From Candidatus Methylomirabilis lanthanidiphila (GTDB lineage: Bacteria > Methylomirabilota > Methylomirabilia > Methylomirabilales > Methylomirabilaceae), in assembly GCA_902196205.1 (NCBI GenBank), contig CABIKM010000004.1, positions 1 through 50,238 on the forward strand: DNA of 50,238 nucleotides. The letters run 5' to 3'. Position 1 is the first letter of the stretch; every line of letters starts with the position of its first letter. The notes beneath the pieces are model-generated. The model saw only the letters and a program-made list of their open reading frames with translations, was not told where the DNA came from and made no database searches. Of the stretch, positions 102-40,600 are shown one piece after another. Made by a program: the position numbers and the translations under genes.

Positions 102-521
102 GTGGACGAGAAGGGCAAAATCTCGAAGAAGGCGGTGGCGGCTCGCCTAAAGGAGATCGGTCACGACGCCGAAGATGCGGAGGAGCGTAATGCGCTTGAA
201 AACTATGCCGCCCTGCTCGACAAGCAAGCTAGTGCCAAAAGCCGGTTGAGGACTGCGCAGGACGCGCTCGAGGCTAAGGTCGCCGCGAAATACGGTAAGC
301 TCACCGAGACCGAGATCAAGACCCTCGTCGTAGAAGACAAATGGCTGGCGCAGCTTGCCGCCGATGTGCAGAGCGAGTTGGACCGCGTCTCCCAGGCGCT
401 CACCGACCGTATCCGCCAGCTCGCCGACCGCTATGCCACCCCGCTGCCGCAGCTCACCGAAGACGTGAGGATCCTCGCCGCCCGCGTGGACGAGCACCTG
501 AAGAAGATGGGGGCGGTATGA
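102..521 (+). pseudogene. hsdM: hsdM remnant: C-terminal end of a type I restriction N6-adenine methyltransferase
   Basis: The 139 residues match only the C-terminal helical tail of HsdM, the methyltransferase subunit of type I restriction-modification systems. Recognisable family features are the DEKGKISK start, the KTLVVEDKW stretch and the final RYATPLPQLTEDV...EHLKKMG. The SAM-binding and NPPF catalytic motifs are absent because the rest of the gene is missing. The frame is open back to about 87, where it meets a stop at 84, just inside the probable insertion sequence. The GTG at 102 is therefore a chance start. The stop overlaps the hsdS start (ATGA), so translation coupling with hsdS would have existed in the intact operon. 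Confidence 0.85.
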
Positions 522-1834
522 AACTGAGTCCGGGGTACAAGCAGACCGAGGTGGGGGTGATTCCGGAGGACTGGGACGCAGGCTGCCTTGGTGATAAATC
601 CACAAAGGTCGGAAGCGGCATGACCCCAACGGGGGGCGAGAAAGTTTACAAGCAAGAGGGGCGACCCTTTCTCAGAAGTCAAAATGTCGGTTGGGGCACA
701 CTTCTCATGGAGGATATTGCCTTCATTGACGAAGCTACCCACGCCACATTCACGGCCACGGAGGTCACGCTTGACGACGTTCTTCTGAACATCACTGGCG
801 CATCAATCGGCCGTAGTGCTGTTGCCGATGCTCGCGTCGAACGAGGCAACGTGAATCAGCATGTTTGCATCATTCGTACCGACCAGGACCTGCTATATCC
901 GCGATTTCTAAACTACTTCCTGCTCTCAAAAGCTGGGCAGCGACAGATTGACAGCTTTCAGGCTGGCGGTAACCGGCAGGGATTGAACTTTGGACAGATT
1001 CGGTCATTTCGTCTCCCAATTCCACCCCTCCCCGAACAACGCGCCATCGCGGCTGCGCTGGGGGATGTGGATGCGCTGCTGGGCGCGCTGGCCCACCTCA
1101 TCGCCAAGAAGCGCGACCTCAAGCAGGCCGCCATGCAGCAGCTTCTCACCGGCCAGACGCGCCTGCCGGGCTTCGGTAAAGGGGTCACTTCCCAGAGAAC
1201 AAGCGTTGGTCGACTTCCGAAGGACTGGACTCTAACGCCCCTGAAGTCAATCAGCACTATGAATGGACGAATAGGCTGGCAGGGTTTGAAGCAGGAGGAG
1301 TTTACTTCTGTTGAGAGCGACCCGTTCCTGATTACGGGGATGAACTTTGAAGATGGCGAGATTAGGTGGGGCGAGGTTTATCACATTCCCGAGAAACGGT
1401 ATGAGGAAGCGAAGCCCATCCAACTACGCGGTGGTGACATTCTCATGACCAAGGATGGCACCATCGGGAAGCTCTTGTTTGTTGAGTCTATTCCCTTCCC
1501 GGGCAAAGCGTCGCTCAATAGCCACTTGCTGGTGTTTCCGCCTCTGAAGGACTCTTATGTTCCCACATTTCTCTTCTACCACTTGAGTTCTAAGAGATTT
1601 GCGGACTACGTTGATCTGAACAAGTCGGGCACGACTTTCTTTGGAATCACTCAGGAAGCTGTCGGGAAGTATCAAGCGTGCCTGCCGTCGATTGATGAGC
1701 AAACCGCCATCGCCGCCGTGCTCTCCGACATGGACGCGGAGATCGCAGCGCTGGAGCAGCGGGCGGCCAAGACTCGCGCCCTCAAGCAGGGGATGATGCA
1801 GGAGCTGCTCACTGGGAGGACCAGACTTGTATGA
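518..1834 (+). CDS. hsdS: Type I restriction-modification specificity subunit HsdS
   Basis: HsdS recognises the bipartite DNA target for the type I methyltransferase/restriction complex. The 438-residue protein has the usual two target recognition domains, roughly residues 1-165 and 225-385. Each is followed by a conserved helical spacer: PLPEQRAIAAALGDVDALL near 168-215 and IDEQTAIAAVLSDMDAEI near 390-438. Both spacers end in a QxLLTGxTRL motif (QQLLTGQTRL and QELLTGRTRL). The N-terminus GYKQTEVGVIPEDW is typical of TRD1. The start at 518 overlaps the hsdM stop (ATGA). The open frame continues upstream to 341, but that part is a shadow of hsdM. The protein looks intact although its methyltransferase partner is truncated. 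Confidence 0.93.
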   Translation: MKLSPGYKQTEVGVIPEDWDAGCLGDKSTKVGSGMTPTGGEKVYKQEGRPFLRSQNVGWGTLLMEDIAFIDEATHATFTATEVTLDDVLLNITGASIGRSAVADARVERGNVNQHVCIIRTDQDLLYPRFLNYFLLSKAGQRQIDSFQAGGNRQGLNFGQIRSFRLPIPPLPEQRAIAAALGDVDALLGALAHLIAKKRDLKQAAMQQLLTGQTRLPGFGKGVTSQRTSVGRLPKDWTLTPLKSISTMNGRIGWQGLKQEEFTSVESDPFLITGMNFEDGEIRWGEVYHIPEKRYEEAKPIQLRGGDILMTKDGTIGKLLFVESIPFPGKASLNSHLLVFPPLKDSYVPTFLFYHLSSKRFADYVDLNKSGTTFFGITQEAVGKYQACLPSIDEQTAIAAVLSDMDAEIAALEQRAAKTRALKQGMMQELLTGRTRLV

Positions 1835-3774
1835 AGATTTCAACGATCCTCGACCACATTGACAGCGGCCACATAGCGTTGCCGGAGTTTCAGCGCGGCT
1901 ATGTCTGGAATAGCGACCAAGTTCGGAAGCTGTTCACTTTGCTATTCCTTCGCCGTCCGGTGGGCGGCCTGCTCGTTTGGGCCACCGAATCCCGAACAGC
2001 CGCGCATCGAGGTGATGGGCCGCTCGCCGGCGGCGTGGTGAAGCTCCTGCTCGACGGTCAGCAACGTATGACCTCACTCTACGGCGTGGTGCGTGGCAGG
2101 CCGCCCATGTTCTTCGACGGAAACGCAAAGGCGTTCACCGGGTTGCGGTTCCATCTCGATACGCAAGCCTTCGAGTTTTATCAGCCGGTCAAGATGCAGG
2201 ATGACCCACTCTGGATTGATGTCACGGAGTTGATGAAGAAAGGAGCCGCCGGGCTGGGTGAGTTCGTGACCCGCCTGACTGCGCAGCCTGCTCTGGCAAC
2301 GAAAGTGGGCGAGTATGTCGGGCGTCTCAGCCGCCTGCTCGGCGTCGCTGATGTGGACCTTTACGTCGAGGAAGTTACCGGTGCGGACAAGACGCTGGAT
2401 GTGGTCGTGGACATCTTCAACCAAGTGAACGGCGGAGGCACCAAGCTCTCGAAGGGCGACCTGGCGTTGGCCAAGATTTGCGTCGACTGGCCACAGGCAC
2501 GCGACACGATGAAGGCCAAGCTCAAGGAGTGGGCCAGGGCGGATTACCACTTCAACCTCGACTGGCTGCTGCGCTCGGTGAACACCGTCCTCACCGGCGA
2601 GGCCAAATTCCAGTTCTTGCATGAGAAAACCGCGGAGGAGATTCGGGATGGTCTGGAACGGGCTACCAGGCACATTGATACAAGCCTGAACCTCATCAGC
2701 GGTCGGCTCGGACTCGACCACGACCAGGTATTCTTTGGTCGCTTTGGTGTGCCCGTGATGGTGCGTTACCTCGACTACCGTAGCGGGCCGATGGGTGAGA
2801 AGGAGCGGGACAAGCTGCTTTTCTGGTTCGTGCAGGCGGGGATGTGGGGCCGGTTCTCAGGCTCAACCGAATCGTTCATCGATCAGGACCTTGCCGCTTT
2901 GGAAGGGGAGGATGGCGGGCTCGACAAGCTCCTGGAACAGTTGCGGCTGTGGCACGGTGGCCTTCGGGTCGAGCCGGGCCATTTTACCGGCTGGAGTCTC
3001 GGTGCACGGTTCTATCCCGTACTCTACCTGCTAACGCGCATGGGGTCCGCCCGGGACTGGGGCACCGGTCTACCACTGAAGGCTTCCCTGCTTGGCAGAA
3101 TGAGCCGGTTGGAGGTGCATCACATCTTCCCGAAGGCGCAGCTCTATCAACGCAAGTTCAAGCGCCCAGAGGTGAACGCGCTCGCGAATTTCTGCTTCCT
3201 CACCAAAGACACCAACCTCGATATCAATGATCGCCTACCGGAGGAGTACTTCCCGGAGATAGCGCGAGCCCACCCCCATGCGCTCGCTTCGCAGTGGATT
3301 CCCGCTGATCCGAACCTGTGGAAGATCGAGAACTTCCGCGAGTTTCTTGAAGCCCGGAAGGTACTGCTGGCGGCAGAGGTCAACCGGCGGATGAAGGACC
3401 TTCTTCACGGGAGTGACGAATGGCTGGCTGGGGCGGCACCCCAAGCTCCTGCGGCCGTCGTGGTCGGAGGCGGCATCACGAGCGAAGCCGAGGAGGAACA
3501 GCTTGAAGCCCTCAATCACTGGATGGAAGAGAACCGCTTGCCGCGTGGCGTGCTGGCTTACGACCTCGCCGACCCCGCAACCGGCGAGCAGAAAGCCGTC
3601 TTCGACCTCGCTTGGCCCAGCGGCATTCAGGAGGAACTGAGCCAGCCGGTCGCGGTGTTGTTGAACGAAGGCAACGAAACCCTGGCCATCGCGAGCCAAG
3701 CCGGATTTCGGTTCTTTACGTCGGTCGACGATTTTCAGCGTTACGTCAGGGATGACATTCTTGTGGAGACATAA
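1831..3774 (+). CDS. DUF262 / HNH nuclease of the GmrSD type inside the type I restriction operon
   Basis: This 647-residue protein has an N-terminal DUF262 (GmrS/ParB-like NTPase) domain with LPEFQRGYVW near residue 17 and the signature LLLDGQQRMTSLYG at 73-86. A DUF1524-like His-Me nuclease core follows, with VHHIFPKAQ near 429 and NFCFLTKDTNLDIN near 453. A C-terminal extension of about 100 residues (about 545-647) is unfamiliar to me. GmrSD proteins are type IV enzymes that cleave modified phage DNA. Here the gene starts inside the hsdS stop (ATGA) and ends two bases before hsdR, so it belongs to the same transcript. A role as an extra restriction activity or toxin-like effector of the system is inference. 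Confidence 0.85.
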   Translation: MKISTILDHIDSGHIALPEFQRGYVWNSDQVRKLFTLLFLRRPVGGLLVWATESRTAAHRGDGPLAGGVVKLLLDGQQRMTSLYGVVRGRPPMFFDGNAKAFTGLRFHLDTQAFEFYQPVKMQDDPLWIDVTELMKKGAAGLGEFVTRLTAQPALATKVGEYVGRLSRLLGVADVDLYVEEVTGADKTLDVVVDIFNQVNGGGTKLSKGDLALAKICVDWPQARDTMKAKLKEWARADYHFNLDWLLRSVNTVLTGEAKFQFLHEKTAEEIRDGLERATRHIDTSLNLISGRLGLDHDQVFFGRFGVPVMVRYLDYRSGPMGEKERDKLLFWFVQAGMWGRFSGSTESFIDQDLAALEGEDGGLDKLLEQLRLWHGGLRVEPGHFTGWSLGARFYPVLYLLTRMGSARDWGTGLPLKASLLGRMSRLEVHHIFPKAQLYQRKFKRPEVNALANFCFLTKDTNLDINDRLPEEYFPEIARAHPHALASQWIPADPNLWKIENFREFLEARKVLLAAEVNRRMKDLLHGSDEWLAGAAPQAPAAVVVGGGITSEAEEEQLEALNHWMEENRLPRGVLAYDLADPATGEQKAVFDLAWPSGIQEELSQPVAVLLNEGNETLAIASQAGFRFFTSVDDFQRYVRDDILVET

Positions 3775-3776
3775 CC

Positions 3777-6700
3777 ATGAGCACCGTCGGCCAGATCGAG
3801 AAGAAGACTCAGGCACGCGTGGTGAGGCTGTTCCGAGAGCAGCTCGGCTACGACTATCTCGGCGACTGGACCGAGCGCGAGGGCAACCGCAACATCGAAG
3901 AGGAGCTGCTGCGAGCCTTCCTGCGAGACAAGCAGGGCTACGACGAGGCGCTCATCACGCGGGCACTTCACGTCTTCGGCAAGGCGGCGGGCGACTCCAG
4001 CAAGAGTCTCTACGACCGTAACCGCGCCGTGTACGACATGCTGCGCTACCCCGTGAAGGTAAAGCCCGGTGCGGGCGACAATACTGAGGACATTTGGCTC
4101 GTCGACTGGAAGCACTCGGAGCGGAACCACTTCGCCATCGCAGAGGAAGTGACCGTCCCGGGCAGCAATGCCAAGGCCCACACCAAGCGCCCGGACGTAG
4201 TGCTCTACGTCAACGGCATTGCGCTCGGTGTGCTGGAGCTGAAACGCTCGACGATTTCCGTAGCCGAGGGCATCCGCCAGAACCTCGACAACCAGAAGAA
4301 GGTCTTCATCGAGCACTTCTTCTCGACGGTGCAGTGGGTGATGGCTGGCAACGACACCGAGGGCCTGCGCTACGGCACCATCCAGACGCCGGAGAAGTAC
4401 TACCTCACCTGGAAGGAGGATGGACCCGAAGGCAACCCGCTGGATCGCGCGCTTCTCCAGCTCTGCGCCAAGACCCGCTTTCTGGAGCTGATTCATGACT
4501 TCATCGTCTTCGACGCCGGGATCAAGAAGCTCTGTCGGGCTCACCAGTACTTCGGCGTGCGGGCCGCGCACAGCCATGTAATGCGTCGCGAGGGCGGGAT
4601 CATCTGGCACACGCAGGGTAGCGGAAAGAGTCTCGTCATGGTGTGGCTGACCAAATGGATTCGCGAGCATGTCACCGATGCCCGCGTGCTCATCATCACG
4701 GACCGTACCGAGCTTGACGAGCAGATCGAGGGGGTCTTCAAGGGCGTCAACGAAGACATCTACCGCACCAAGAGCGGCGCGGACCTAATCGCCACCCTGA
4801 ACGCGACGTCGCCCTGGCTGGTGTGCTCGCTCGTCCACAAATTCAGTGGGAAGGGGGAAGGCGAGGAGGTCGGCGACATCCCCGGCTACATCGCAGAATT
4901 GAAGAAGGCGCTGCCGCCCGGTTTCGCCGCCAAGGGCAACCTCTTCGTCTTCGTCGACGAGTGTCACCGCACCCAATCCGGTGAGCTGCACAAGGCGATG
5001 ACGGCCATCCTGCCGAGAGCCGTGTTCATCGGCTTCACCGGCACGCCGCTGCTGAAGGCCGACAAGCAGAAGAGCATTGAGGTTTTCGGCGGTTACATCC
5101 ACACCTACAGGTTCGACGAGGCGGTGAAGGACAAGGTGGTGCTCGACTTGCGCTATGAGGCGCGGGACATCGATCAGCGTATCACCTCGCAGGACAAGAT
5201 CGACCAGTGGTTCGAGGCCAAGACTCGAGGTCTGACCGACTTGGCCAAAGCGCAGCTCAAGCAGCGGTGGGGCACGATGCAGAAGGTGCTCTCCAGCCAG
5301 TCGCGACTGGAGCAGATCGGCGCCGACATCTTGATGGACATGGAGACTCGCGACCGGCTGAAGAGCGGCCGGGGCAATGCCATACTGGTCTCCGGGAGCA
5401 TCTACCAAGCGTGTAGGTTCTACGAGTTATTGGACAAGACCGACTTCAGGGGCAAGTGCGCGATCGTCACCTCTTACAGACCGTCACCCGCTGACATCAA
5501 GGGCGAGGAGAGCGGCGAGGGTCTGACGGAGCGGCTGCGACAATACGACATTTACAAGCAGATGCTGGCCGACTGGTTCAACGAGCCGGCGGAGACCGCG
5601 GTAAGCAGGGTTGAAGAGTTCGAGAAGGCTGTAAAGAAGAAGTTCATCAAAGAGCCGGGTCAGATGAAGCTGCTCATCGTGGTCGATAAGCTGCTGACGG
5701 GCTTCGATGCGCCGCCTGCAACTCACCTGTACATTGATAAGCAGATGCGCGATCACGGTCTCTTCCAGGCCATCTGCCGCGTGAACCGGCTGGACGGTGG
5801 CGACAAGGAGTACGGATACATCATCGACTACAAGGACCTGTTCCAGAGCCTCGAGGGAGCGGTGCACGACTACACCTCAGGGGCACTGGACGGCTACGAC
5901 AAGGAGGATGTGGCGGGACTGCTCGAGGACCGGCTGGGCAAGGCACGGGAGCGACTGGAGGAGGTTCGGGAGGCAGTGAAGGCCCTCTGTGAGCCGGTGG
6001 AAGTGCCAAAGGACTCGGCGGCCTACCTGCGCTACTTCTGCGCCAAGGATTCCGGCCACGCCGAACAGCTCAAGGCCAACGAACCGAACCGACTGGCGCT
6101 CTACAAACATGTTGCGGCGTTCGTTCGAGCGTTTGCCAACCTCGCCAACGAGTTGGCAGACGCCGGATACTCTCCCACTGATATCGATGTCCTGAAGGCA
6201 GAGGTCGACCACTACGAGAAAGTCCGCACCGAGGTCAAGCTGGCCAGCGGCGACTACATCGATCTCAAGATGTACGAGCCGGCCATGCGGCACCTGATCG
6301 ACGCCTACATCCGGGCCGAAGAGAGCGAGAAGGTGTCCGCCTTCGATGACATGTCGCTCGTCCAGCTTATCGTTGAACGAGGGGCGGCTGCGGTCGATAC
6401 TCTGCCGGATGGAATCAGGAAGAACGAGGAGGCCGTGGCCGAGGCCATCGAGAACAACGTCCGCAAGCTGATCATCGACGAACAGCCGATCAATCCGAAG
6501 TACTATGAAAAGATGTCGGAGTTGCTGGACGCCTTGATCGAACAACGCCGCAAGGAGGCGATGGACTACCAGAAGTATCTGCGCAAGATCGTAGAATTGA
6601 CAAGACAGGTGACCAACCCCGAAGCGAGTGGCGCGTATCCGGTAACGACGAATACCCCTGGCAAGCGGGCGTTGTATGATAACTTCGACAAGGACGAGGC

Positions 6701-6962
6701 GCTGGCGCTGGCGGTCCATGCCGCGGTACGCGCCAACCGGCAGGACGACTGGCGGAGTAACCCGTTCAAGGTCAAGAAGGTGAGGAATGCGATCCGGGAC
6801 GCGCTGGCGTCGGACGGGGCGCGAGTGATAGGCGGCCGTGACGCTGCGAAGCCCACCGTTGTGCAGGCACCGCCGGATGTCTATGTTACGAAGTCGTCGG
6901 AGTCCCCCGAAGAGCGGGTCGAGAGAATCCTCGCTTTGGTGAAGAATCAGGATGAGTACTGA
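3777..6962 (+). CDS. hsdR: Type I restriction enzyme endonuclease subunit HsdR
   Basis: HsdR is the translocating nuclease of the type I complex. The 1061-residue protein carries an N-terminal PD-(D/E)XK nuclease domain, with KRPDVVLYVNG near 138-148 and the catalytic ELK near 154-156. A superfamily 2 helicase motor follows, with Walker A TQGSGKS near 276-282, DECH near 394-397 and TGTPL near 421. The helical C-terminal domain is complete. It begins two bases after the DUF262 gene, and its last codons overlap the start of the metallopeptidase gene by 11 bases. It cannot restrict without HsdM, and only a fragment of hsdM remains next to it, so activity depends on a methyltransferase encoded elsewhere. 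Confidence 0.95.
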   Translation: MSTVGQIEKKTQARVVRLFREQLGYDYLGDWTEREGNRNIEEELLRAFLRDKQGYDEALITRALHVFGKAAGDSSKSLYDRNRAVYDMLRYPVKVKPGAGDNTEDIWLVDWKHSERNHFAIAEEVTVPGSNAKAHTKRPDVVLYVNGIALGVLELKRSTISVAEGIRQNLDNQKKVFIEHFFSTVQWVMAGNDTEGLRYGTIQTPEKYYLTWKEDGPEGNPLDRALLQLCAKTRFLELIHDFIVFDAGIKKLCRAHQYFGVRAAHSHVMRREGGIIWHTQGSGKSLVMVWLTKWIREHVTDARVLIITDRTELDEQIEGVFKGVNEDIYRTKSGADLIATLNATSPWLVCSLVHKFSGKGEGEEVGDIPGYIAELKKALPPGFAAKGNLFVFVDECHRTQSGELHKAMTAILPRAVFIGFTGTPLLKADKQKSIEVFGGYIHTYRFDEAVKDKVVLDLRYEARDIDQRITSQDKIDQWFEAKTRGLTDLAKAQLKQRWGTMQKVLSSQSRLEQIGADILMDMETRDRLKSGRGNAILVSGSIYQACRFYELLDKTDFRGKCAIVTSYRPSPADIKGEESGEGLTERLRQYDIYKQMLADWFNEPAETAVSRVEEFEKAVKKKFIKEPGQMKLLIVVDKLLTGFDAPPATHLYIDKQMRDHGLFQAICRVNRLDGGDKEYGYIIDYKDLFQSLEGAVHDYTSGALDGYDKEDVAGLLEDRLGKARERLEEVREAVKALCEPVEVPKDSAAYLRYFCAKDSGHAEQLKANEPNRLALYKHVAAFVRAFANLANELADAGYSPTDIDVLKAEVDHYEKVRTEVKLASGDYIDLKMYEPAMRHLIDAYIRAEESEKVSAFDDMSLVQLIVERGAAAVDTLPDGIRKNEEAVAEAIENNVRKLIIDEQPINPKYYEKMSELLDALIEQRRKEAMDYQKYLRKIVELTRQVTNPEASGAYPVTTNTPGKRALYDNFDKDEALALAVHAAVRANRQDDWRSNPFKVKKVRNAIRDALASDGARVIGGRDAAKPTVVQAPPDVYVTKSSESPEERVERILALVKNQDEY

Positions 6963-32022: not shown

Positions 32023-32304
32023 TTACCCGCCGAGATCATTGATGGCCTGATGTAACGCTTTACCAGGCTTGAACTTCAGTACCTTACGAGCCGTGATTGT
32101 GATCGGGTCACCGGTCTGAGGATTGCGTCCTTTTCTGGCTCGCTTGGCTCTGACCTGAAAAGAGCCAAAGCCCACAAGCTGGATCTTCTCCCCTTTCTTT
32201 AGCGCATTCTTCACAATCTCGAGGGTTGCCTCCACTGCTTCCATCGCCTGTTTCTTGGCGAGGCCCTTTTCAGCCACGATCGAAGCTATGTCAGCCTTGG
32301 TCAT
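32023..32304 (-). CDS. ihfA: Integration host factor alpha-like / HU-type DNA-binding protein
   Basis: This 93-residue HU/IHF protein has TKADIASIVAEKGLAKKQAM, the GFGSFQVRAKRARKGRNPQT arm region and ARKVLKFKPGKALHQAI. Followed by a MerR-type gene, it matches the usual ihfA-merR pair; pheT, the usual gene before ihfA, is not here. The partner IHF-beta-like gene is at 26658. It may also act as plain HU. Confidence 0.87.
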   Translation of the reverse strand: MTKADIASIVAEKGLAKKQAMEAVEATLEIVKNALKKGEKIQLVGFGSFQVRAKRARKGRNPQTGDPITITARKVLKFKPGKALHQAINDLGG

Positions 32305-32466
32305 CGTTTTCCTTCCCTCTCGTGAGTAAGACCCATTCTCTGTCCGAATTCTGCTGTCCCCGCACGACCTGTCGCTTCAGATCAGCGCACCTGTTTACCC
32401 ATGCCAGCGATAACCAATATGATAGAGAGGGGAGGCAAGGTTGTCAAATCCTTTTTCCGACGCGTG

Positions 32467-33888
32467 TTACGATGCGACATTGTTCCCATCCTGAGAGTCA
32501 TCGGGGAGAAGACGAAGCGAGTCGGCGGCGGACTGAGGCGCAGAGGCACGATAGGCGTAGCTCAGGGTTCGTCCCATCACCGCCGCGTAGACCAGGCCTC
32601 CCAGCGCGAGTATCAGGGCGCCAGGTTGAGCGATCGCCGCTTGGGCAGTGATCAGGCCGGCGGCCAGCGTCAGGACGCCGATATTCAACGAGACGAACAC
32701 AAACGGCCGCCAGCGTAACAGGGAAAACCCGGTGATCGGCAGCGTCGACCAGCCTCTGCGCTCACGCACCCCGACGACGATACCAGGAAAGAGCTTAAAG
32801 GACATCCCGACGATGAGGTTCGTCACCCACCCGAGCAACCCCAGCACCCCGTACGCTCCCGCAATCCTGTTGCCGAGGGCGCTGTCCGGATCAATCCACA
32901 GTAACGAGAATCCGAGCCCAACGGCGAGCAGCAAAGAGACCATGCCGGCCATCGCGTGTCGCATTGTCCAGTCGATCGGTGTCCGCCGGTTGCGCACAAG
33001 CGTAGAGAGCACCCCGACATAGATCAACAGGGCCAACATGATCACCACGCTCCAGACGGAGACTCCTGGAATCCAACCCAGGAGCGACATGGCCAAGCCG
33101 GCGACACCGACGGCGAGGCCATAGAGTTGCCAGACCGCCAGACGCGGCAGCGTCAGCTCCGACAGGAGAAACGCCGGCGCCATTCGGTAGGAGATTGAAC
33201 AGATGGTCAGGCTCACCCATCCGAGCGCCGCCAGATGCGCATGACTGGCCAGATTGGTGATGACATTGCCGGGAAGAAACCCGCGAGACTTGTCAAACGC
33301 AAGGAGAAAACCGAGCGTAGCCGCGAGCAATAGAAATACGATCGACATGCACATGCCGGTTTCCGGCGCGCTCCGGTGCCAGGCGGGACCAAGGCAGTAC
33401 AGCATATTCATCGCGAAGAACACCACGCTGAGCACAATGACGGCCGCCGCCATCCAGGTGGGCGGCCACACTCCAATCAGCATGTGCGTCATGAGACCTG
33501 TCGCGCTGAAGATGTAGAGCCCGAACTGCCAGCGCGCCAGTCTCGGGAAGCGCAAGGGTCGTTTGGTCATAGCCGGCACCAGCCGATACATCACCCCCAT
33601 GATCGCAGAGCTGATCCATCCAAGCGTAAAGGTGTGGGTCGTCGCCAGGATCCGCGGATGATAGAAAAACTCCATCAGATCACCTATCACCCACGGAACC
33701 GCGGCAACACCAAGGCCGAAGAGGGCGACGGCAGAGATAAAGAAATGGATCGGCAGCCGTGCCGTTCGGATCAGTTCGCGGGACGAAGCGCTCTGCGCGG
33801 TCGGTTCGGCCTCAGGCTCCTGCGTCACGCGCCCGCTTGTCTCCGGATCAAGATCGATTCGCAACCGTTCAGATCGGTGCAGGCTCAT
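32467..33888 (-). CDS. Multi-span membrane protein of the heme-copper oxidase subunit I (CcoN) / NnrS-like type
   Basis: This 473-residue protein has about 12 hydrophobic segments. Two blocks have the same shape, TTHTFTLGW...YRLVPA near 70-95 and SHAHLAALGW...YRMAPA near 215-240. This histidine-LGW pattern is seen in short cbb3-oxidase subunit I-like and NnrS-like heme proteins. The full set of CuB histidines of a true oxidase is not obvious, so I do not call it an oxidase. It starts 20 bases after the stop of the VKOR/NnrS fusion gene (ATG 33888, GGGA upstream), and both are likely made together. A role in nitric oxide, oxygen or quinone handling is inference. Confidence 0.6.
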   Translation of the reverse strand: MSLHRSERLRIDLDPETSGRVTQEPEAEPTAQSASSRELIRTARLPIHFFISAVALFGLGVAAVPWVIGDLMEFFYHPRILATTHTFTLGWISSAIMGVMYRLVPAMTKRPLRFPRLARWQFGLYIFSATGLMTHMLIGVWPPTWMAAAVIVLSVVFFAMNMLYCLGPAWHRSAPETGMCMSIVFLLLAATLGFLLAFDKSRGFLPGNVITNLASHAHLAALGWVSLTICSISYRMAPAFLLSELTLPRLAVWQLYGLAVGVAGLAMSLLGWIPGVSVWSVVIMLALLIYVGVLSTLVRNRRTPIDWTMRHAMAGMVSLLLAVGLGFSLLWIDPDSALGNRIAGAYGVLGLLGWVTNLIVGMSFKLFPGIVVGVRERRGWSTLPITGFSLLRWRPFVFVSLNIGVLTLAAGLITAQAAIAQPGALILALGGLVYAAVMGRTLSYAYRASAPQSAADSLRLLPDDSQDGNNVAS

Positions 33889-33908
33889 GTGGTATCCCGC
33901 GTGTGATC

Positions 33909-35567
33909 TCAACCGGCTTTCCCCGCACTATCCATCACCAAGACGGTCCGTTTCCCCACTACACCGGATACGGCCATGTTCCCCAGAAAAAGCAGTACGG
34001 CGACCACATTCAGCAGGCCGCCTCCCAGCCTTCCCGGCCACCACGCCGTGACATCCCCCGCCACTCGCAGCACAAGCGACAGGTGCAGTAAGATAAGATG
34101 GCTGTAGAACGCCGGACGAAACGGCAACGCGATTTCCAGCACAGATGGAAAGATGATCGGGGCGTGCCCGATAATCATCGAGAACACAAAACCGACAAAT
34201 ATGGCGTGCAGCGTCGCATCATAGCCATCCGGTCCGCTATGCTGGTGGATCGCATGTATGCTCGCATCGTGGTGCAATCCGAACGCCACCCCTCCAAAAC
34301 CTAACGTCAGCAGTCCCGCCACCGCCAGCCACACATAACCTGAGAGGAGGCTGAGCGCCACGAATCGGTGCAATCCGGTTTTCTGCACCGAGTATCGGGC
34401 CATATCGTGGCGCAGCAGCCACACGCTCAGCGACACCAGGCCCACTCCGCTTACGCGCGCCCCAATGTCGAATGTCAGCCCGACCGGAATAAGTCCAGCC
34501 GCAAAAAGCGCCGCCGCAGCCAGAAACGATAGCCGATGTCGCTGCGCGAGCGGGAGAAAGCGGCTCAGTTCCAATCGTTCTCCCGCAATCGTCAGGATCA
34601 GGAACGCGGCCCACCAGCTTACCACACCGGTGATCGACCACCCGCTCAGCCAAAGGCTATTGCCGACCAGCCACGCAAGCGCCCCGAGCCCCATCGTGAC
34701 CGTAAATAGGGCGGGTTGTTCGCGAATGAGATAGGCGAACGTGATCACCAACATCAGGCTGCCAAGGGTCATCAGCGCGGGGCCCACGATACCGGGGATT
34801 CCGACTATCAGGATAACCGCGCCTATCCCGGTGGCCAGCGGCCCGAAAGCCGGCCACCACTTCCTGATCGCGACGGCTCGCTCCAGCGCGATGAGCGTTC
34901 CCAGGAATCCCGACACCATCAGGGGACCGTGTACGGCGGGCAAAGTCGCAGGAACGGCCGACCAGTCCCATCCCAGGCGGTAGAGTCCGCCCAAGAGCGC
35001 CGCGAGCAGCGCGAACATGCCTGACGCCATCAGCGGAAATCTGAACGCGCGTCGCAACGCCCCAGGCGGGCTTTGTGATGCTCGCTCGGAAATTGTCTGT
35101 TCCGGCTGTTTCGCCGCTCGCGTCGTCAGAATCGCACCAAGGCTCAGGATAAAGAGCGACGTCATCGTCAGGGCCGAAAGAACACACCACACACAGATCG
35201 ACTCGATGACCGCAACCTGCAGATAGATCAGCCACGCCGATACCGCGGCGCCGATTCCACCGACCGCAGCGATGATCTCCAGCGGACGTCGACTGTCGAG
35301 GATGACCGCTGCAACCGAGAGGACAAGCAACACCAGATACGCGCCGACACCGAACACCGCAATGGGGATTCCCCAGACCTTAGAGTATTCCCCCTGGTTG
35401 ACGACGTCGCATCCTCCGGTAGGACAGAAGCCAGACGTCTCCGCGAGATGCCCCCAGAGCAAGTAGCCCGAGTCGGCCAGACCGAGCACGGCGAGTACAG
35501 GGAGCGCCATCAGCCACCGCCACGTGCGGCGGCCGGCGGCGGCCTCAGTAAACCTCAATGGGAACAT
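33909..35567 (-). CDS. VKOR domain fused to an NnrS-like membrane domain
   Basis: The 552-residue protein starts with a vitamin K epoxide reductase domain (about 15-150). It has the loop cysteine pair C48 and C53 in CPTGGCD, the YSKVWGIPIAVFG block with its serine, and the CVWC redox motif at 125-128. After a linker at about 150-165 come some ten further membrane spans with LPAVHGPLMVSGFLGTLIALE near 205 and a histidine-rich stretch HHDASIHAIHQHS from 432, followed by LHAIFVGFVFSMIIGHAPI. That half resembles NnrS-type heme-copper membrane proteins. VKOR normally passes electrons from periplasmic dithiols to quinone. The fusion suggests thiol/quinone redox coupled to a heme site. ATG 35567 overlaps the radical SAM gene by 23 bases; ATG 35585 is an alternative. 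Confidence 0.75.
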   Translation of the reverse strand: MFPLRFTEAAAGRRTWRWLMALPVLAVLGLADSGYLLWGHLAETSGFCPTGGCDVVNQGEYSKVWGIPIAVFGVGAYLVLLVLSVAAVILDSRRPLEIIAAVGGIGAAVSAWLIYLQVAVIESICVWCVLSALTMTSLFILSLGAILTTRAAKQPEQTISERASQSPPGALRRAFRFPLMASGMFALLAALLGGLYRLGWDWSAVPATLPAVHGPLMVSGFLGTLIALERAVAIRKWWPAFGPLATGIGAVILIVGIPGIVGPALMTLGSLMLVITFAYLIREQPALFTVTMGLGALAWLVGNSLWLSGWSITGVVSWWAAFLILTIAGERLELSRFLPLAQRHRLSFLAAAALFAAGLIPVGLTFDIGARVSGVGLVSLSVWLLRHDMARYSVQKTGLHRFVALSLLSGYVWLAVAGLLTLGFGGVAFGLHHDASIHAIHQHSGPDGYDATLHAIFVGFVFSMIIGHAPIIFPSVLEIALPFRPAFYSHLILLHLSLVLRVAGDVTAWWPGRLGGGLLNVVAVLLFLGNMAVSGVVGKRTVLVMDSAGKAG

Positions 35568-36345
35568 GGGTGCGCTTTTGCGCATACTCCGCAATCGACT
35601 CGAGCACCTCCCTGGCAACCGGCTTCACACCGGAGTCGGCCGGTACGCGGTCGAGCGTATAGATGTGGACGCCGCGCGGATGGATTTCGGCAACTCGATC
35701 GGACCACTCCTGGATTGCGAGCGGCGCCGTATTGGCCGCTCTGCCCCACACAAACATCGTTTGCAATATCACCCCGTCAAGGTTCGCCAGCCCCTGAAGC
35801 ATTGTCATGAAGTCCCACCCTGGAGCCGGCAGATTGATCTGACGCGCGAGGCTCTCCGTTCCGGCATCCAACTTCATCAGTTTGAGATCGACCCCCCGCA
35901 GGGCGGCGCGCACCTCCGCGCGATGGACGGTCGAGCTGTTCGAAAGGATGGCCAGTTTGGCGTTCGGCGCGTAGATGTCCCGCAGATCGGAGACGGTCTT
36001 GACGATCGCCTGCAACTCCGGATGGAGCGTCGGCTCGCCGTTGCCGGAGAAGGTAATAACGTCGATTGCGACGCGCTCGCGGGACAGTTCTTGCAGCCGC
36101 GCCTCTAAGGCCTCCGCTACCTGCTTACCAGAGGGCAGATCCGCAAGCGAGTCGATGCCCGGCCGGATCGGCTGCGTCGTCCACCCGCACTGGCAGTAGC
36201 GGCAGTTGAACGAACAGTATTTGACGCCCGTACCGAGCAGATTGACGCCGAGCGACCGGCCGAGCCGTCGGGAAGACAGCGGCCCGTAGATCAGATCCTC
36301 TTTGACCAGGCGGCGTCGGCGAGTATCCAGCGTAATCGAGTTCAG
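35545..36345 (-). CDS. Radical SAM protein (COG0731-like), without a common start codon
   Basis: Reading from 36345, the product has 266 residues: DLIYGPLSSRRLGRSLGVN, the radical SAM cluster motif CSFNCRYC (C44, C48, C51), SGNGEPTLHPEL and ILSNSSTVH. The SRRLG start and C-x3-C-x2-C-Q layout match radical SAM proteins of unknown substrate. The frame is closed by TAA at 36354-36352, and no ATG, GTG or TTG occurs before the cysteine motif. Only CTG codons (36345 first, overlapping the hpt stop) could start it. A TTG at 36015 would lose the whole catalytic motif. It is probably translated by coupling to hpt from CTG, unless a sequence error hides the start. Confidence 0.78.
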   Translation of the reverse strand: MNSITLDTRRRRLVKEDLIYGPLSSRRLGRSLGVNLLGTGVKYCSFNCRYCQCGWTTQPIRPGIDSLADLPSGKQVAEALEARLQELSRERVAIDVITFSGNGEPTLHPELQAIVKTVSDLRDIYAPNAKLAILSNSSTVHRAEVRAALRGVDLKLMKLDAGTESLARQINLPAPGWDFMTMLQGLANLDGVILQTMFVWGRAANTAPLAIQEWSDRVAEIHPRGVHIYTLDRVPADSGVKPVAREVLESIAEYAQKRTHVPIEVY

Positions 36346-36899
36346 GTTGTCACGTCCTTACCGGCGGGGTCCGCCGCATGAAGTGCGGCGACATACGGAA
36401 GTCCTCGTCCCTGCCCATACGCATCCAGACCGTAGCCGATCATCCAGGCGTCGGGCACCTCAAAGCCGACGTAGTCGGCGCTGATCGCCACCTGTCGTCG
36501 ACCCGGCTTATCCAGGAGCACGCAGCTACGCAGCCAGCGTGGGTTTCGGGCGGCCAGGTGCGCGCGGACCATACTGAGCGTATGTCCCGAATCCAGGATG
36601 TCATCGACCAGCAGCACCACCCGTCCGTGCAGATCCAATGCACTGTCCTTGTGGATCTGCACCAGACCGCTGGAGGCCACCAGCGGCCCGTAGTGCGAGA
36701 CCGCCATCAGGTCGACCTCCGGCTCTATCTCCAGACGCGCCAGCGCCCGCACCAAGTCGGCGAGGAAGATGAAGGAGCCGGTCAACAGGCCGATCAACAC
36801 CGGCGTCGGCTCCGGGAGATCCCGGGCGATCATGCGCGCCAATTCCTGAACCCGTGCCGCAATCGTCGGCTCGTCAAAGAGCATCCGATGAGCTAGCAT
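36342..36899 (-). CDS. hpt: Hypoxanthine phosphoribosyltransferase
   Basis: Hpt salvages hypoxanthine and guanine with PRPP. The 185-residue protein has VLIGLLTGSFIFLADLVRAL, the PRPP motif LLVDDILDSGHTLSMV, and the C-terminal SADYVGFEVPDAWMIGYGLD typical of the family. The ATG at 36899 overlaps the miaB stop by seven bases. Its own stop overlaps the presumed start of the radical SAM gene. Confidence 0.95.
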   Translation of the reverse strand: MLAHRMLFDEPTIAARVQELARMIARDLPEPTPVLIGLLTGSFIFLADLVRALARLEIEPEVDLMAVSHYGPLVASSGLVQIHKDSALDLHGRVVLLVDDILDSGHTLSMVRAHLAARNPRWLRSCVLLDKPGRRQVAISADYVGFEVPDAWMIGYGLDAYGQGRGLPYVAALHAADPAGKDVTT

Positions 36900-38206
36900 A
36901 CGATCTCCCCTTGCAGATACAGGGGGGTGGCTTCTGTAATCGCGACCTGTACCATGCTGCCGTCCACCACCTCGTCGCCTCTAAAATGGACGATCTTATT
37001 CTGGCGTGTCCGACCGGTGTGGCGAACAGTGTCTACCTTGGCATCCTCGCGATTCACAAGCACCTCAACAGTTCGGCCGATATAGGCGCGGTTACGCTCA
37101 AGCGACGACTGATTGAGCAGCCTTAGCGCGTGCTCTAACCAACGGCCTTTCACCTCCTCAGAGAGCTGGTCCGGCATCCCCTCGGCCTCGGTGTGGGGTC
37201 TCGGCGAATATTTGAAGATAAACGCGCCGTCGAAACCGACCTCCTGCATCAGGTCGAGAGTTGCCTGGAAGTCCTCCTCTGTCTCACCGGGGAATCCGAC
37301 AATAATATCCGTGGTGATGGCAATGTCGGGCGCCTTGGCGCGCAGAAGCGCGACCTTTTCCAGGTACTCCTCTCTATTATAGCCGCGCTTCATTTGATGC
37401 AGAATTCGATCGGAGCCAGATTGCACAGGCAGATGGATCTGTTCACACAGACTCGGCAGCTCTGCGATGGCCGCTGCCAGCTCGTCGGTCACATCGCTGG
37501 GATGAGGGCTTGTAAATCGAACCCGCATATAATCGCCCACAAGCTGATCGATGTGACGAAGGAGTTCCACAAAGCTGATCGGAGGCGTAAGCTTCCTGCC
37601 ATAGGAGTTAACGGTCTGTCCCAGTAGCGTAACCTCGCGATACCCCTGGCGCTTCAGTTCGCGTATCTCCTCAATAATCGCCTGAGGGGGTCGGCTGCGC
37701 TCGCGGCCCCGCGTGAATGGAACCACGCAAAAGGTACAGAAGCGATCACATCCCTCCATGATGCTGACCCAGGCCCTGATGCCGCTTCGACGCTGAACGG
37801 GCGCGTCAACCGGGTAGGAGTAGCCGGCTGCTCTCGCCGTCGCCACTCCTCTCGCCGCCCCGGCCTGAAGCAACGTTGGAATAGCGGTGAGCTGGCCGGG
37901 ACCGACCACAAAGTCCAGGTATGGAAATCGGTTCAGCAGTGCCTGCCCTTCCTGCTGAGCGACGCACCCACAGATGCCGATCTTCAATCCGGCCCGTTGC
38001 CGTTTCAATGCCTGGAAAGACCCGAGACGGCTGTAGACCTTATGCTCGGCCTTCTCGCGGATCGCACAGGTATTAAGAACAATGAGGTCGGCCTCTTCCT
38101 CCTGCTCGGTGAGGGTGAATCCTTCGCGGAGCAGCAACCCGGTAATCCGCTCTGAATCAAGGTCGTTGGCCTGACAGCCATAGGTGATCAGTTTCAGCTT
38201 GGGCAT
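36893..38206 (-). CDS. miaB: tRNA-2-methylthio-N6-dimethylallyladenosine synthase
   Basis: MiaB is a radical SAM methylthiotransferase that modifies ms2i6A37, acting after MiaA (gene at 20142). The 437-residue protein has the N-terminal cluster domain (TYGCQAND, NTCAIREKAE, ICGCVAQQEG), the radical SAM motif GCDRFCTFCVVPFTRG, and a C-terminal TRAM domain (RTVEVLVNRED...TRQNKIVHF). The common QMN of the first motif is QAN here. ATG 38206 has AAGGGTGG just upstream; GTG 38212 is an alternative. It lies between aspC and hpt. Confidence 0.95.
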   Translation of the reverse strand: MPKLKLITYGCQANDLDSERITGLLLREGFTLTEQEEEADLIVLNTCAIREKAEHKVYSRLGSFQALKRQRAGLKIGICGCVAQQEGQALLNRFPYLDFVVGPGQLTAIPTLLQAGAARGVATARAAGYSYPVDAPVQRRSGIRAWVSIMEGCDRFCTFCVVPFTRGRERSRPPQAIIEEIRELKRQGYREVTLLGQTVNSYGRKLTPPISFVELLRHIDQLVGDYMRVRFTSPHPSDVTDELAAAIAELPSLCEQIHLPVQSGSDRILHQMKRGYNREEYLEKVALLRAKAPDIAITTDIIVGFPGETEEDFQATLDLMQEVGFDGAFIFKYSPRPHTEAEGMPDQLSEEVKGRWLEHALRLLNQSSLERNRAYIGRTVEVLVNREDAKVDTVRHTGRTRQNKIVHFRGDEVVDGSMVQVAITEATPLYLQGEIVC

Positions 38207-38214
38207 TGCCACCC

Positions 38215-39417
38215 TTAACCGCGCAGCGCGCCAAGCGCATGCTCGATCCGGTCCGCTCCAGTCCTGATGCTTTCCATCGACGTGGCATACGAAAGGCGAA
38301 GATGCGCGTCGCTTCCGAATTCGCTCCCCGGGACCGATACGACGTGGGCGGTCTGCAACAGGTAGGCCGCCATCTCGGCGGAGTTTCGAACCGGATGCCC
38401 ATCGCCAACCGAGCCGTAAAAACTGGAGACGTTTGGAAACAGATAGAATGCCCCTTCAGGGTTTGTACATCGGATGCCGGGAATGGCGTTCAGTCGACCC
38501 AGGAGATATCTCCGACGCTGTTCGAATTCAATCACCATGGCGCGCAGATCGTCATGTGGACCAAGTAATGCGGCAACGGCGGCCTTTTGCGCAATCGAGG
38601 TCGGATTAGACGTCACCTGTCCCTGGATGGTGTTCATCGCCTTAATGATCTCCGCCGGTCCTGCCGCGTACCCGATTCGCCAACCGGTCATGGCATACGC
38701 CTTGGAAACGGTATTGACGACCATAGTTCGCCGCCTCACCTCTTCGTCGAGCGACGCGATGCTCGTATGGATATGCCCGTCATAGGTTAAAGACTCGTAT
38801 GCCTCGTCCGAAATTACCAGCAGGTCCCGCTCCACCGCCAGCGCCGCGATGGCCCGCAACTGGTCCGGCTGGATCATGGCGCCGGTCGGGTTGCAGGGAC
38901 TATTCAGGAGGATCGCCTTCGTCTTCGGCGTAATGGCCGACTCCAGCGCCGCCCTGGTCAGATGGAATCCATCCTCTTCGCGCGTCTGCACAATCACCGG
39001 CCGCGCATCCACGAGGCGGATCTGTTCCGTATAGGTGACCCAGTAAGGGGCCGGAACGATGACCTCATCGCCGGATTCAAACAGCGCCTCCGCGATATTG
39101 AACAACGAATGTTTCGACCCGCACGAGACGATGACCTCTGCAGGGCTGTACGAGAGGCCATTGTCGCGTTTGAGCTTAGTGATGATCGCCTGCTTCAACT
39201 CGTCGATGCCGCCCGCGGCCGTATATCGTGTAAATCCCTCTCGTATAGCCGTAATGCCCGCATCCTTGATGTGAACCGGCGTCTCAAAATCCGGCTCCCC
39301 GAGTCCGAAGTCTACAACATCGATGCCCTGCGCCTTCATCTGCTTGGCGATTGCAGCCATGGCCAGCGTGGCAGAGGGACTGGCATTCCTTGCGCGATTT
39401 GACAGATTTATCGCCAT
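38215..39417 (-). CDS. aspC: Aspartate aminotransferase (class I, PLP)
   Basis: This 400-residue enzyme transfers amino groups between aspartate and 2-oxoglutarate and is of the Ig subgroup (AspB/AspC). It has LGEPDFETPVHI, GSKHSLFNIAEAL, LNSPCNPTGAM, ISDEAYE, and the PLP lysine in NTVSKAYAMTGWRIGY. The C-terminal substrate arginine lies in LRLSYATS. The start is five bases after coaD. Some family members accept prephenate, so the substrate is not fixed. Confidence 0.94.
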   Translation of the reverse strand: MAINLSNRARNASPSATLAMAAIAKQMKAQGIDVVDFGLGEPDFETPVHIKDAGITAIREGFTRYTAAGGIDELKQAIITKLKRDNGLSYSPAEVIVSCGSKHSLFNIAEALFESGDEVIVPAPYWVTYTEQIRLVDARPVIVQTREEDGFHLTRAALESAITPKTKAILLNSPCNPTGAMIQPDQLRAIAALAVERDLLVISDEAYESLTYDGHIHTSIASLDEEVRRRTMVVNTVSKAYAMTGWRIGYAAGPAEIIKAMNTIQGQVTSNPTSIAQKAAVAALLGPHDDLRAMVIEFEQRRRYLLGRLNAIPGIRCTNPEGAFYLFPNVSSFYGSVGDGHPVRNSAEMAAYLLQTAHVVSVPGSEFGSDAHLRLSYATSMESIRTGADRIEHALGALRG

Positions 39418-39422
39418 CGTGG

Positions 39423-39926
39423 TTATCTCCGTTCTCCTTTCGGATGTGTGCTCATCCGTTCCTTCAGCATTTGTTCGACCATTGGCGTGACGAACTGGGA
39501 TACGTCGCCGCCAAGCAGCGCAATCTCCTTCACCAGCCGAGAGCTCAGATAGGAATATCGCTCATGAGGCATCAGAAAGACGGTTTCGATCTCGTCGTTC
39601 AGCTTTCGATTCATCAGCGCCATCTGAAATTCGTATTCGAAGTCGGACAGTGCGCGCAGACCGCGAATGACCACGTGCGCACCGCGTCGACGCATATAGT
39701 CCACCAGCAGACCGTCAAAGGAGTCGATAGAGACGCCCCGCATACCTCGGACGGCGTTCCGAATGATTCGCTGTCGCTCTGCAAGGCTGAACAGTGGGGC
39801 CTTCTCAGGATTCGTGCTCACCGCGATAACAAGCCCGGGAAAAAGGCGGTGGGCCCGCCTGGCGATATCGATATGGCCGAAGGTGAAGGGATCGAACGTC
39901 CCGGCGTAGACAGCCAGCGTCGTCAC
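39423..39926 (-). CDS. coaD: Phosphopantetheine adenylyltransferase
   Basis: CoaD catalyses the penultimate step of coenzyme A synthesis. The 167-residue protein has the nucleotidyltransferase motif YAGTFDPFTFGHIDI (T/HxGH type), VSTNPEKAPLFSLAERQ, VIRGLRALSDFEYEFQMA, and the YSYLSSRLVKEIA block. Its ATG overlaps the rsmD stop (ATGA); rsmD-coaD is a conserved pair. Confidence 0.97.
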   Translation of the reverse strand: MTTLAVYAGTFDPFTFGHIDIARRAHRLFPGLVIAVSTNPEKAPLFSLAERQRIIRNAVRGMRGVSIDSFDGLLVDYMRRRGAHVVIRGLRALSDFEYEFQMALMNRKLNDEIETVFLMPHERYSYLSSRLVKEIALLGGDVSQFVTPMVEQMLKERMSTHPKGERR

Positions 39927-40480
39927 ATTGCCTCCCGTCGATATAGTTGAAGAGCTGTATCGCCATGCCGGACCTCGCGAACAAGCGTCAGTCCTGAGGG
40001 GACGCGGATCGGGACGACCTTTGTCGATCGCTCCAGGATCGCCGTGCCGGTTGGCGCAAGCAGATCCGTCGCCGCGATGATGCTGATGGCGGTCCCTGCG
40101 TCGGCATGCAGGTACGGAGGATCCAGAAAGATCAGATCGAACTGTTGTGATCCGCAGGCCGCCCGGCGCAGGTATCGGAGAACCTCCATTGGAACGACCT
40201 CAGCCCGATCACGGAACCCGGACATGTCCAGATTTCGGTACAGCATCGCGAGGGCCGACCGACTGTGCTCAACGAAAACGGCCGCGGCCGCCCCACGACT
40301 CAAGGCCTCTATCCCCACTGCGCCGGTCCCAGCGTACAGGTCGAGAAAGCTCCTGCCTTCGATCTGATGCGTCAGCAGATTAAAGAGAACCTCGCGCAGA
40401 TAGTCCGATGTCGGTCTCGTTTTGCTTCCGCGAGGAGCCAGAAGCCGTCGCCCTCTGGCGAGGCCACCGATTATTCTCAT
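39923..40480 (-). CDS. rsmD: 16S rRNA (guanine(966)-N(2))-methyltransferase
   Basis: RsmD methylates G966 of 16S rRNA. From ATG 40480 the product has 185 residues and begins MRIIGGLARGRRLLAPRG, then TRPTSDYLREVLFNLL, SAM motif FLDLYAGTGAVGIEALSRG and catalytic DLIFLDPPY. The longer open frame to 40564 would cover the promoter of rpmB and is rejected. It is the first gene of the minus-strand run that ends at 32467. Confidence 0.95.
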   Translation of the reverse strand: MRIIGGLARGRRLLAPRGSKTRPTSDYLREVLFNLLTHQIEGRSFLDLYAGTGAVGIEALSRGAAAAVFVEHSRSALAMLYRNLDMSGFRDRAEVVPMEVLRYLRRAACGSQQFDLIFLDPPYLHADAGTAISIIAATDLLAPTGTAILERSTKVVPIRVPSGLTLVREVRHGDTALQLYRREAM

Positions 40481-40512
40481 GCGTCGTCTCGAGCAGATGT
40501 CTACTTCTGCGC

Positions 40513-40541
40513 TTGATTTTACTGAGTGCTCTGCGTATAAT
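40513..40541 (+). promoter_or_regulatory. Sigma70-type promoter for rpmB
   Basis: TTGATT at 40513-40518 and a perfect TATAAT at 40536-40541 are 17 bases apart, 60 bases before the rpmB start. Confidence 0.75.
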
Positions 40542-40600
40542 GATTTTTCGTGACGCGCAATCATTCAATGGCCATCAACTATCGTATCGGAGGTATTGCA

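Follow-up and report, generated by a model that had tools for sequence, protein, structure and literature searches.

Proteins of the VKOR family are known mainly alone or as thioredoxin fusions, and the PDB chains matched in this work are named accordingly. The HCOH proteins of Pei, Li, Kinch and Grishin (2014) reportedly include NnrS-like relatives of the respiratory oxidases with 12 helices and others with four, all with few histidines and a genomic context of nitric oxide (NO) type. We know of no VKOR fusion in that work, and the open-licence PMC literature contained no paper on VKOR with Methylomirabilis, none for HCOH terms and, among the matches listed, none covering both VKOR and NnrS. 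Here we describe such a fusion, found in a stretch of 50,238 nucleotides (the window) of contig CABIKM010000004.1 of Candidatus Methylomirabilis lanthanidiphila, a methane-consuming bacterium whose life depends on NO. A VKOR domain is joined in one reading frame to a membrane domain with the predicted fold of the heme-copper oxidases, between a gene for a radical S-adenosylmethionine (SAM) protein and a gene for a second oxidase-fold protein. Six conserved histidines mark the catalytic subunit in heme-copper oxidases and in NO reductases (PMC3413370), and NnrS is a member of NO-responsive regulons (PMC1274295). We refer to the membrane domain of the fusion as NNRSL and to the CcoN/NnrS-like partner as CCONL; residue numbers of the fusion are those of its predicted model, which begins at residue 4. 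The main features are as follows.

35545-36345, minus strand: radical SAM gene, 266 residues from a CTG start; PF04055, CxxxCxxC; position kept at 12/12 fusion loci
ATG at 35585 to 33909, minus strand: VKOR/oxidase-fold fusion gene, 558 residues; uninterrupted frame in 12/15 congeners
35139-35513, minus strand: VKOR domain; PF07884, 84.1 bits against a cut-off of 27.5
35409-35426, minus strand: VKOR CxxxxC pair (model C51, C56) between helices 1 and 2, periplasmic side; invariant in 12/12
35184-35195, minus strand: VKOR CxxC pair (model C128, C131) at the start of helix 4; invariant in 12/12
33912-35081, minus strand: oxidase-fold membrane domain NNRSL, 12 helices; predicted local distance difference test score (pLDDT) mostly >90, Z 27.6
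34929-34931, minus strand: invariant histidine, model H216, NNRSL helix 2; 77/77
34206-34208, minus strand: invariant histidine, model H457, NNRSL helix 10; 77/77
34164-34166, minus strand: invariant histidine, model H471, NNRSL helix 10; 77/77
34239-34274, minus strand: histidine-rich periplasmic loop HHxxxxHxxHxH (model 435-446); fused proteins only
ATG at 33888 to 32467, minus strand: CcoN/NnrS-like gene (CCONL), 473 residues, 12 helices; structural match to CcoN, profile match to NnrS
33574-33648, minus strand: CCONL block 1, His84, LTHTFTLGW-type motif; histidine in 20/20
33175-33252, minus strand: CCONL block 2, His215 and His217, HAHLAALGW-type motif; His215 in 20/20, His217 in 17/20 (85%)
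32785-32856, minus strand: CCONL block 3, Tyr345 in place of histidine, AYGVLGLLGW; tyrosine invariant in 20

The initial annotation had placed three adjacent genes here, overlapping or 20 bases apart, directly after rsmD-coaD-aspC-miaB-hpt, and both statements stand: the radical SAM and fusion genes overlap by 41 nucleotides, and CCONL starts 20 nucleotides past the end of the fusion (a gap that exceeds 100 nucleotides in two relatives). It had also called the second gene a VKOR/NnrS fusion and the third a 12-span protein with two matching histidine-LGW blocks. In the former case the VKOR half and the single frame were borne out, but the membrane part is not NnrS in Pfam (0/20 members); in the latter the 12 helices and the matching blocks are present, but the blocks number three and the third carries a tyrosine.

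To place the locus among its relatives we surveyed 95 genomes of the phylum, including 15 of the genus Methylomirabilis. The source genome comprises 3.05 Mb in 90 contigs. That of one congener (G024) is complete in one contig with a length of 2,752,854 bases. The four VKOR cysteines are kept in all 12 aligned rows (nine fusions and three stand-alone VKOR proteins), and the VKOR half matches 4nv6 with an E value of 4e-8. The arrangement that the relevant part of PMC11208910 gives for VKOR, a CXnC pair between helices 1 and 2 and a CXXC pair at the start of helix 4, is present, with helix positions taken from a low-confidence part of the predicted model. Charge counts (seven inside, one outside) put both cysteine pairs on the outer side of the membrane. 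In each of the 12 genomes with the fusion, the VKOR half is the sole PF07884 match, and the other three congeners lack one; no genome of the 15 in the genus encodes DsbB (PF02600), and DsbA-family proteins, encoded away from the fusion, occur in 13 of them. Because it is the only PF07884 match and DsbB is absent, the fused VKOR, where present, is by gene content the sole recognisable quinone-linked disulfide maker of the cell. It shares the four-cysteine VKOR domain with the VKOR-thioredoxin fusions (4nv6) but, unlike them, is joined to an oxidase-fold domain and has no thioredoxin domain, its DsbA-type partners being encoded elsewhere. The novel point of the locus is this joining of a sole VKOR and a histidine-rich loop to an oxidase-fold protein in one clade.

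The predicted model of NNRSL superimposes on CcoN (8smr_E) over 353 residues, and that of CCONL (pLDDT 80.1) on the same chain over 390 residues (Z 35.9) and on a NorB (Z 34.0), so both are predicted to adopt the 12-helix heme-copper-oxidase fold that they share with the CcoN/NorB catalytic subunits. Unlike those subunits, they lack the six-histidine set, the fully conserved histidines being two in CCONL (20/20 rows) and three in NNRSL (77/77), and their operon lacks oxidase partner subunits, none being found by Pfam among the neighbours. We therefore reject an active terminal oxidase or NO reductase, since the six-histidine set is missing although the fold is present.

CCONL resembles NnrS along its whole length in profile comparison (97%, E 1e-10), with a PF05940 score of 21.1 bits, under the cut-off of 28. 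Against six oxidase-family proteins of its own genome it gives a local, shifted profile match (54%, E 1e-4), in which alignment of the CCONL HAH with the oxidase HxH hints at heme ligands. For NNRSL, Pfam-A and NCBIfam hold no model, and with no match in either database its assignment as a plain NnrS was not upheld; its relation to NnrS is remote, being based on the fold of the model and on a profile match that is weak and confined to the C-terminus. At least 565 relatives were found in the species-genome collection, in Chloroflexota, Nitrospira, Deltaproteobacteria, Acidobacteria and other groups, and NNRSL is a widespread oxidase-fold family without an existing model. The pair is like NnrS (PF05940) in the full-length profile likeness of CCONL and the NO-type neighbourhood of NNRSL relatives, but none of the five NnrS proteins compared has anything corresponding to the VKOR fusion or the histidine loop. 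The alignments A1-A4 were made from part of the loci (20, 20, 8 and 12 rows). A short sequence (L128) was omitted from the family set, L151, L173 and L181 were also omitted from alignment A5, and where a tblastn stretch contained an internal stop codon (L059, L063, L086, L097, L098) it was omitted from alignments or given narrower coordinates.

A CCONL paralog with 31-34% identity occurs in nine of the 15 congeners. In the source genome (L098, C22:107000-121000) its neighbours encode two proteins with DUF2249, one of them of DUF2249-hemerythrin type, along with an Mrp-type carrier that has an Fe-S assembly domain and a regulator of the Crp/Fnr family. At several Chloroflexota loci NNRSL is followed by a protein of about 140 residues with weak COX1 similarity, often two in tandem; six of them (L135, L148, L157, L175, L187, L189) have two such proteins right after NNRSL, each with one His-(L/V)GW block. 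These tandem genes look as if CCONL had been split into single oxidase-type repeat units. This is reportedly the unit structure that Pei and colleagues (2014) described for the HCOH proteins; the relatives found here likewise include 12-helix forms as well as split ones of about 140 residues.

The histidine-rich loop, which has the form HHxxxxHxxHxH or close to it, lies directly before the invariant YD..LH of helix 10 and, by charge counts, on the outer side of the membrane, the same side as the VKOR cysteine pairs. All 12 fused proteins have five or six histidines in it. The same loop has none or one in the three unfused congeners and in 83 of 84 other readable loops, the remaining loop having three; at five loci (L085, L123, L133, L166, L171) it was unreadable. 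This pattern suggests a putative metal site.

Within the genus, NNRSL and CCONL are present and adjoining in 15/15 genomes and are a real pair. The VKOR half, the adjacent radical SAM gene and the histidine loop are found in the same 12 genomes, with the order hpt, radical SAM gene, fusion, CCONL retained at all 12 loci; the frame overlap of the 41-nucleotide type between radical SAM gene and fusion is also the same in 12/12, with an ATG there in ten. The remaining three genomes (G022, G027 and G028, with completeness of 80, 81 and 94%) lack both VKOR and the radical SAM gene, and their two membrane genes remain overlapping or adjacent. A tree of NNRSL that included four of the 12 fused proteins places these in a single clade on a long branch (support 100/100), and unfused G027 and G022 plus G028 branch earlier. 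Since the fused clade is nested past the unfused branches, the VKOR fusion, the radical SAM neighbour and the histidine loop look derived and acquired once, although loss in three species could also account for the pattern. Across the 95 genomes of the phylum, 39 have a relative of CCONL, 42 have one of the fusion and 22 one of the radical SAM protein. Nine genomes from a different family within the class have relatives of both NNRSL and CCONL, and none has them on one contig; the contigs are short, and this result therefore neither supports nor refutes the pairing. The place of hpt differs: in G022 and G027 (L053, L058) it is found downstream of the unfused pair, with one frame between in G022, and in the fused clade it precedes the radical SAM gene, so the linkage survived a rearrangement.

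We then compared the surroundings of the best 80 of the at least 565 NNRSL relatives, counting genes near (within 2.5 kb) and far (5-9 kb); neighbours were called with a simple gene caller and clustered by BLAST single linkage, one member of each cluster being checked in Pfam. Five Methylomirabilis loci were omitted from the counts over 75 near and 61 far loci. Genes for Fe-S assembly (PF01883), DUF2249, hemerythrin, DUF1858 or protoglobin proteins occur near NNRSL at 35/75 loci versus 2/61 far, and related oxidase-fold partners and cupin genes each at 13/75 versus 1/61. The 80 loci are the best of a larger set and are not independent, and Fisher values on these counts are therefore rough. In a haloarchaeon, levels of DUF2249 proteins increase when the cells denitrify (PMC11218638). 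True NnrS genes occur in two congeners, at L195:1123-2913 (G031) and L197 (G025); according to Pfam, the former is a fusion flanked by ScdA_N on one side and DUF1858 on the other, which links NnrS directly to iron-centre-repair domains. The source genome itself carries, on contig C41 (L108, L110), a pair of neighbouring qNOR-like genes whose products are putative NO dismutases, and a canonical qNOR-like gene elsewhere. The two show the His-to-Asn and Glu-to-Gln substitutions described for putative NO dismutases in PMC3413370.

Taken together, these observations are consistent with a membrane pair for NO tolerance of NnrS type, whose first member is fused to the sole VKOR of the cell and thereby ties NO tolerance to disulfide formation, a reading to which we give an even chance. 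NNRSL and CCONL would form an NnrS-type pair with the heme-copper-oxidase fold and without its catalytic metal set, each probably binding one heme, and the pair may protect the cell against NO that it makes and consumes. VKOR would be quinone-linked and form disulfide bonds through DsbA. In one Methylomirabilis clade the first member of the pair is fused to VKOR and has the histidine-rich periplasmic loop, and the fusion could couple periplasmic thiol oxidation to the NO-tolerance protein either by co-location and a shared quinone or by shielding NO-sensitive thiols. The electron flow in this scheme is conjectural. A VKOR-type enzyme that is the only one in its cell is joined here to a protein with the respiratory-oxidase fold in bacteria that make and use NO and, if the link is functional, oxidative protein folding would be tied to NO chemistry. 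The oxidase-fold family outlined here, which often adjoins Fe-S-repair and NO-response genes, is in addition open to tests in culturable bacteria.

Several observations weigh against this reading. The NO role is suggested by neighbourhood, that is, by guilt by association, and in the operon itself Pfam shows housekeeping neighbours, none of NO type and none a regulator. Crp/Fnr genes are no commoner near NNRSL (5/80) than far from it (4/65), and NarG is near in only 1/80 loci. NnrS (PF05940) has no Pfam match in any of 20 NNRSL members, and the NNRSL profile matches true NnrS weakly (35%) over the last 90 residues alone. The VKOR part of the predicted model is of low confidence, and the VKOR fold therefore rests on the Pfam and 4nv6 matches. 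Finally, G022, G027 and G028 have DsbA-type proteins but neither VKOR nor DsbB (G022 and G027 being 80-81% complete), and disulfide formation in these congeners can therefore dispense with VKOR or uses something unseen.

The alternative that survives best concerns the radical SAM gene, which may be functionally a housekeeping gene (for example in RNA modification, like miaB) tied to the fusion by position only. This is a serious possibility, if not a favoured one. The protein belongs to the radical SAM superfamily (PF04055, 42.4 bits against a cut-off of 29.5), with a CxxxCxxC motif invariant in 8/8 aligned rows. Its gene follows miaB-hpt, and the frame has no ATG, GTG or TTG upstream of the motif; the likeliest start is therefore the CTG at 36342-36345, which overlaps the hpt stop by four nucleotides as CTGA. 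Relatives have CTG, TTG, GTG or ATG near the same place, L056 also having CTG. A housekeeping assignment is at odds with scores under every NCBIfam model cut-off, with weak matches to PDB chains (E 0.006-0.01) and with the absence of the gene from three congeners. In its favour are the CTGA overlap after miaB-hpt and the SRRLG...LGV...CxxxCxxC pattern, which is presumably like that of a family that includes wyosine-synthase relatives. The only close relative outside the genus (G019, 52%) follows another radical SAM gene, precedes an Rrf2 regulator and lies apart from VKOR and from any oxidase-fold pair; G019 carries its VKOR relative on a different contig, where genes for a sodium:solute symporter and a QueG-like protein are nearby. 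The membrane pair can do without the radical SAM gene, both in related species and elsewhere, since it exists without it in congeners and at other loci. Most likely the gene has a task of its own or one that concerns the VKOR part, a housekeeping role being as likely as a VKOR-linked one.

Alternatively, the fusion could be a disulfide enzyme with a passive partner, in which VKOR carries out ordinary oxidative folding and the oxidase-fold domain anchors it, stabilises it or shares quinone with it, with no NO chemistry. The exclusivity of VKOR, the absence of DsbB, the presence of DsbA and the housekeeping operon all fit such an arrangement, which nevertheless leaves unexplained the three histidines of NNRSL kept in 77/77 rows, its own partner protein and the NO-type neighbours elsewhere, and we consider it unlikely. 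We are more doubtful still that the locus handles metal, the histidine loop and oxidase-fold domain binding or loading copper or another metal while VKOR sets the thiol state required. The loop, in 12/12 fused and 0/3 unfused congeners and on the same side as the VKOR cysteine pairs, points in this direction, as does a CopD-like gene near the family at 6/80 loci and far at 0/65. However, Pfam analysis of the neighbours found no copper gene in the operon, and NO-type neighbours are commoner than CopD-like ones.

A bolder and quite improbable proposal is that the fusion is a self-contained periplasmic thiol oxidase of a new type: VKOR would accept electrons from thiols, those of DsbA or others, and the oxidase-fold domain, aided by CCONL and a loop-held metal, would pass them directly or via a captive quinone to NO or to O2 from NO dismutation. 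If this were true, disulfide formation would be driven by the organism's own NO/O2 chemistry and not by the open quinone pool.

Least probable is a maturation module, in which both membrane proteins depend on the radical SAM enzyme for the making or insertion of a cofactor: the genes overlap at all 12 fusion loci and the radical SAM gene, VKOR fusion and histidine loop share exactly the same 12 of 15 genomes, but this represents one origin on the tree, the protein has only four cysteines, all within or next to CxxxCxxC, and none for an auxiliary Fe-S cluster as in SPASM/twitch maturases, and the G019 relative has other neighbours. The initial annotation had given this idea as an example, and we reject it as the leading one because the pair lives without a radical SAM gene in G022, G027 and G028, as does its family at 77 of the best 80 loci; those 77 have no VKOR or radical SAM relative nearby, and the other three are Methylomirabilis fusions. 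Its expectation that the three families co-occur was confirmed in 12/15 congeners by gene-neighbourhood comparison. This co-occurrence is weak evidence of joint function, since it represents one event, and of the broader suggestion that the three genes work together, the tight coupling and the membrane pair (15/15) hold up, but the pair stands without the radical SAM gene in three congeners.

Two further features flank the three genes.

36342-40564, minus strand: upstream run rsmD, coaD, aspC, miaB, hpt; expected Pfam domains, spacing -7 to +5 nucleotides
32419-32447, minus strand: promoter-like site TTGACA-17-TATCAT, 11/12 bases; precedes an HU-like gene (32023-32304)

CCONL is separated from the HU-like gene by 162 nucleotides that include this site. 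Because of the site and the spacing, the operon probably ends just after CCONL; promoter-like sites number seven in the region versus 2.6 expected. Elsewhere in the window, positions 341-6962 hold what we take to be a type I restriction-modification locus in which a DUF262-like gene separates the gene for the specificity subunit from that for the restriction subunit.

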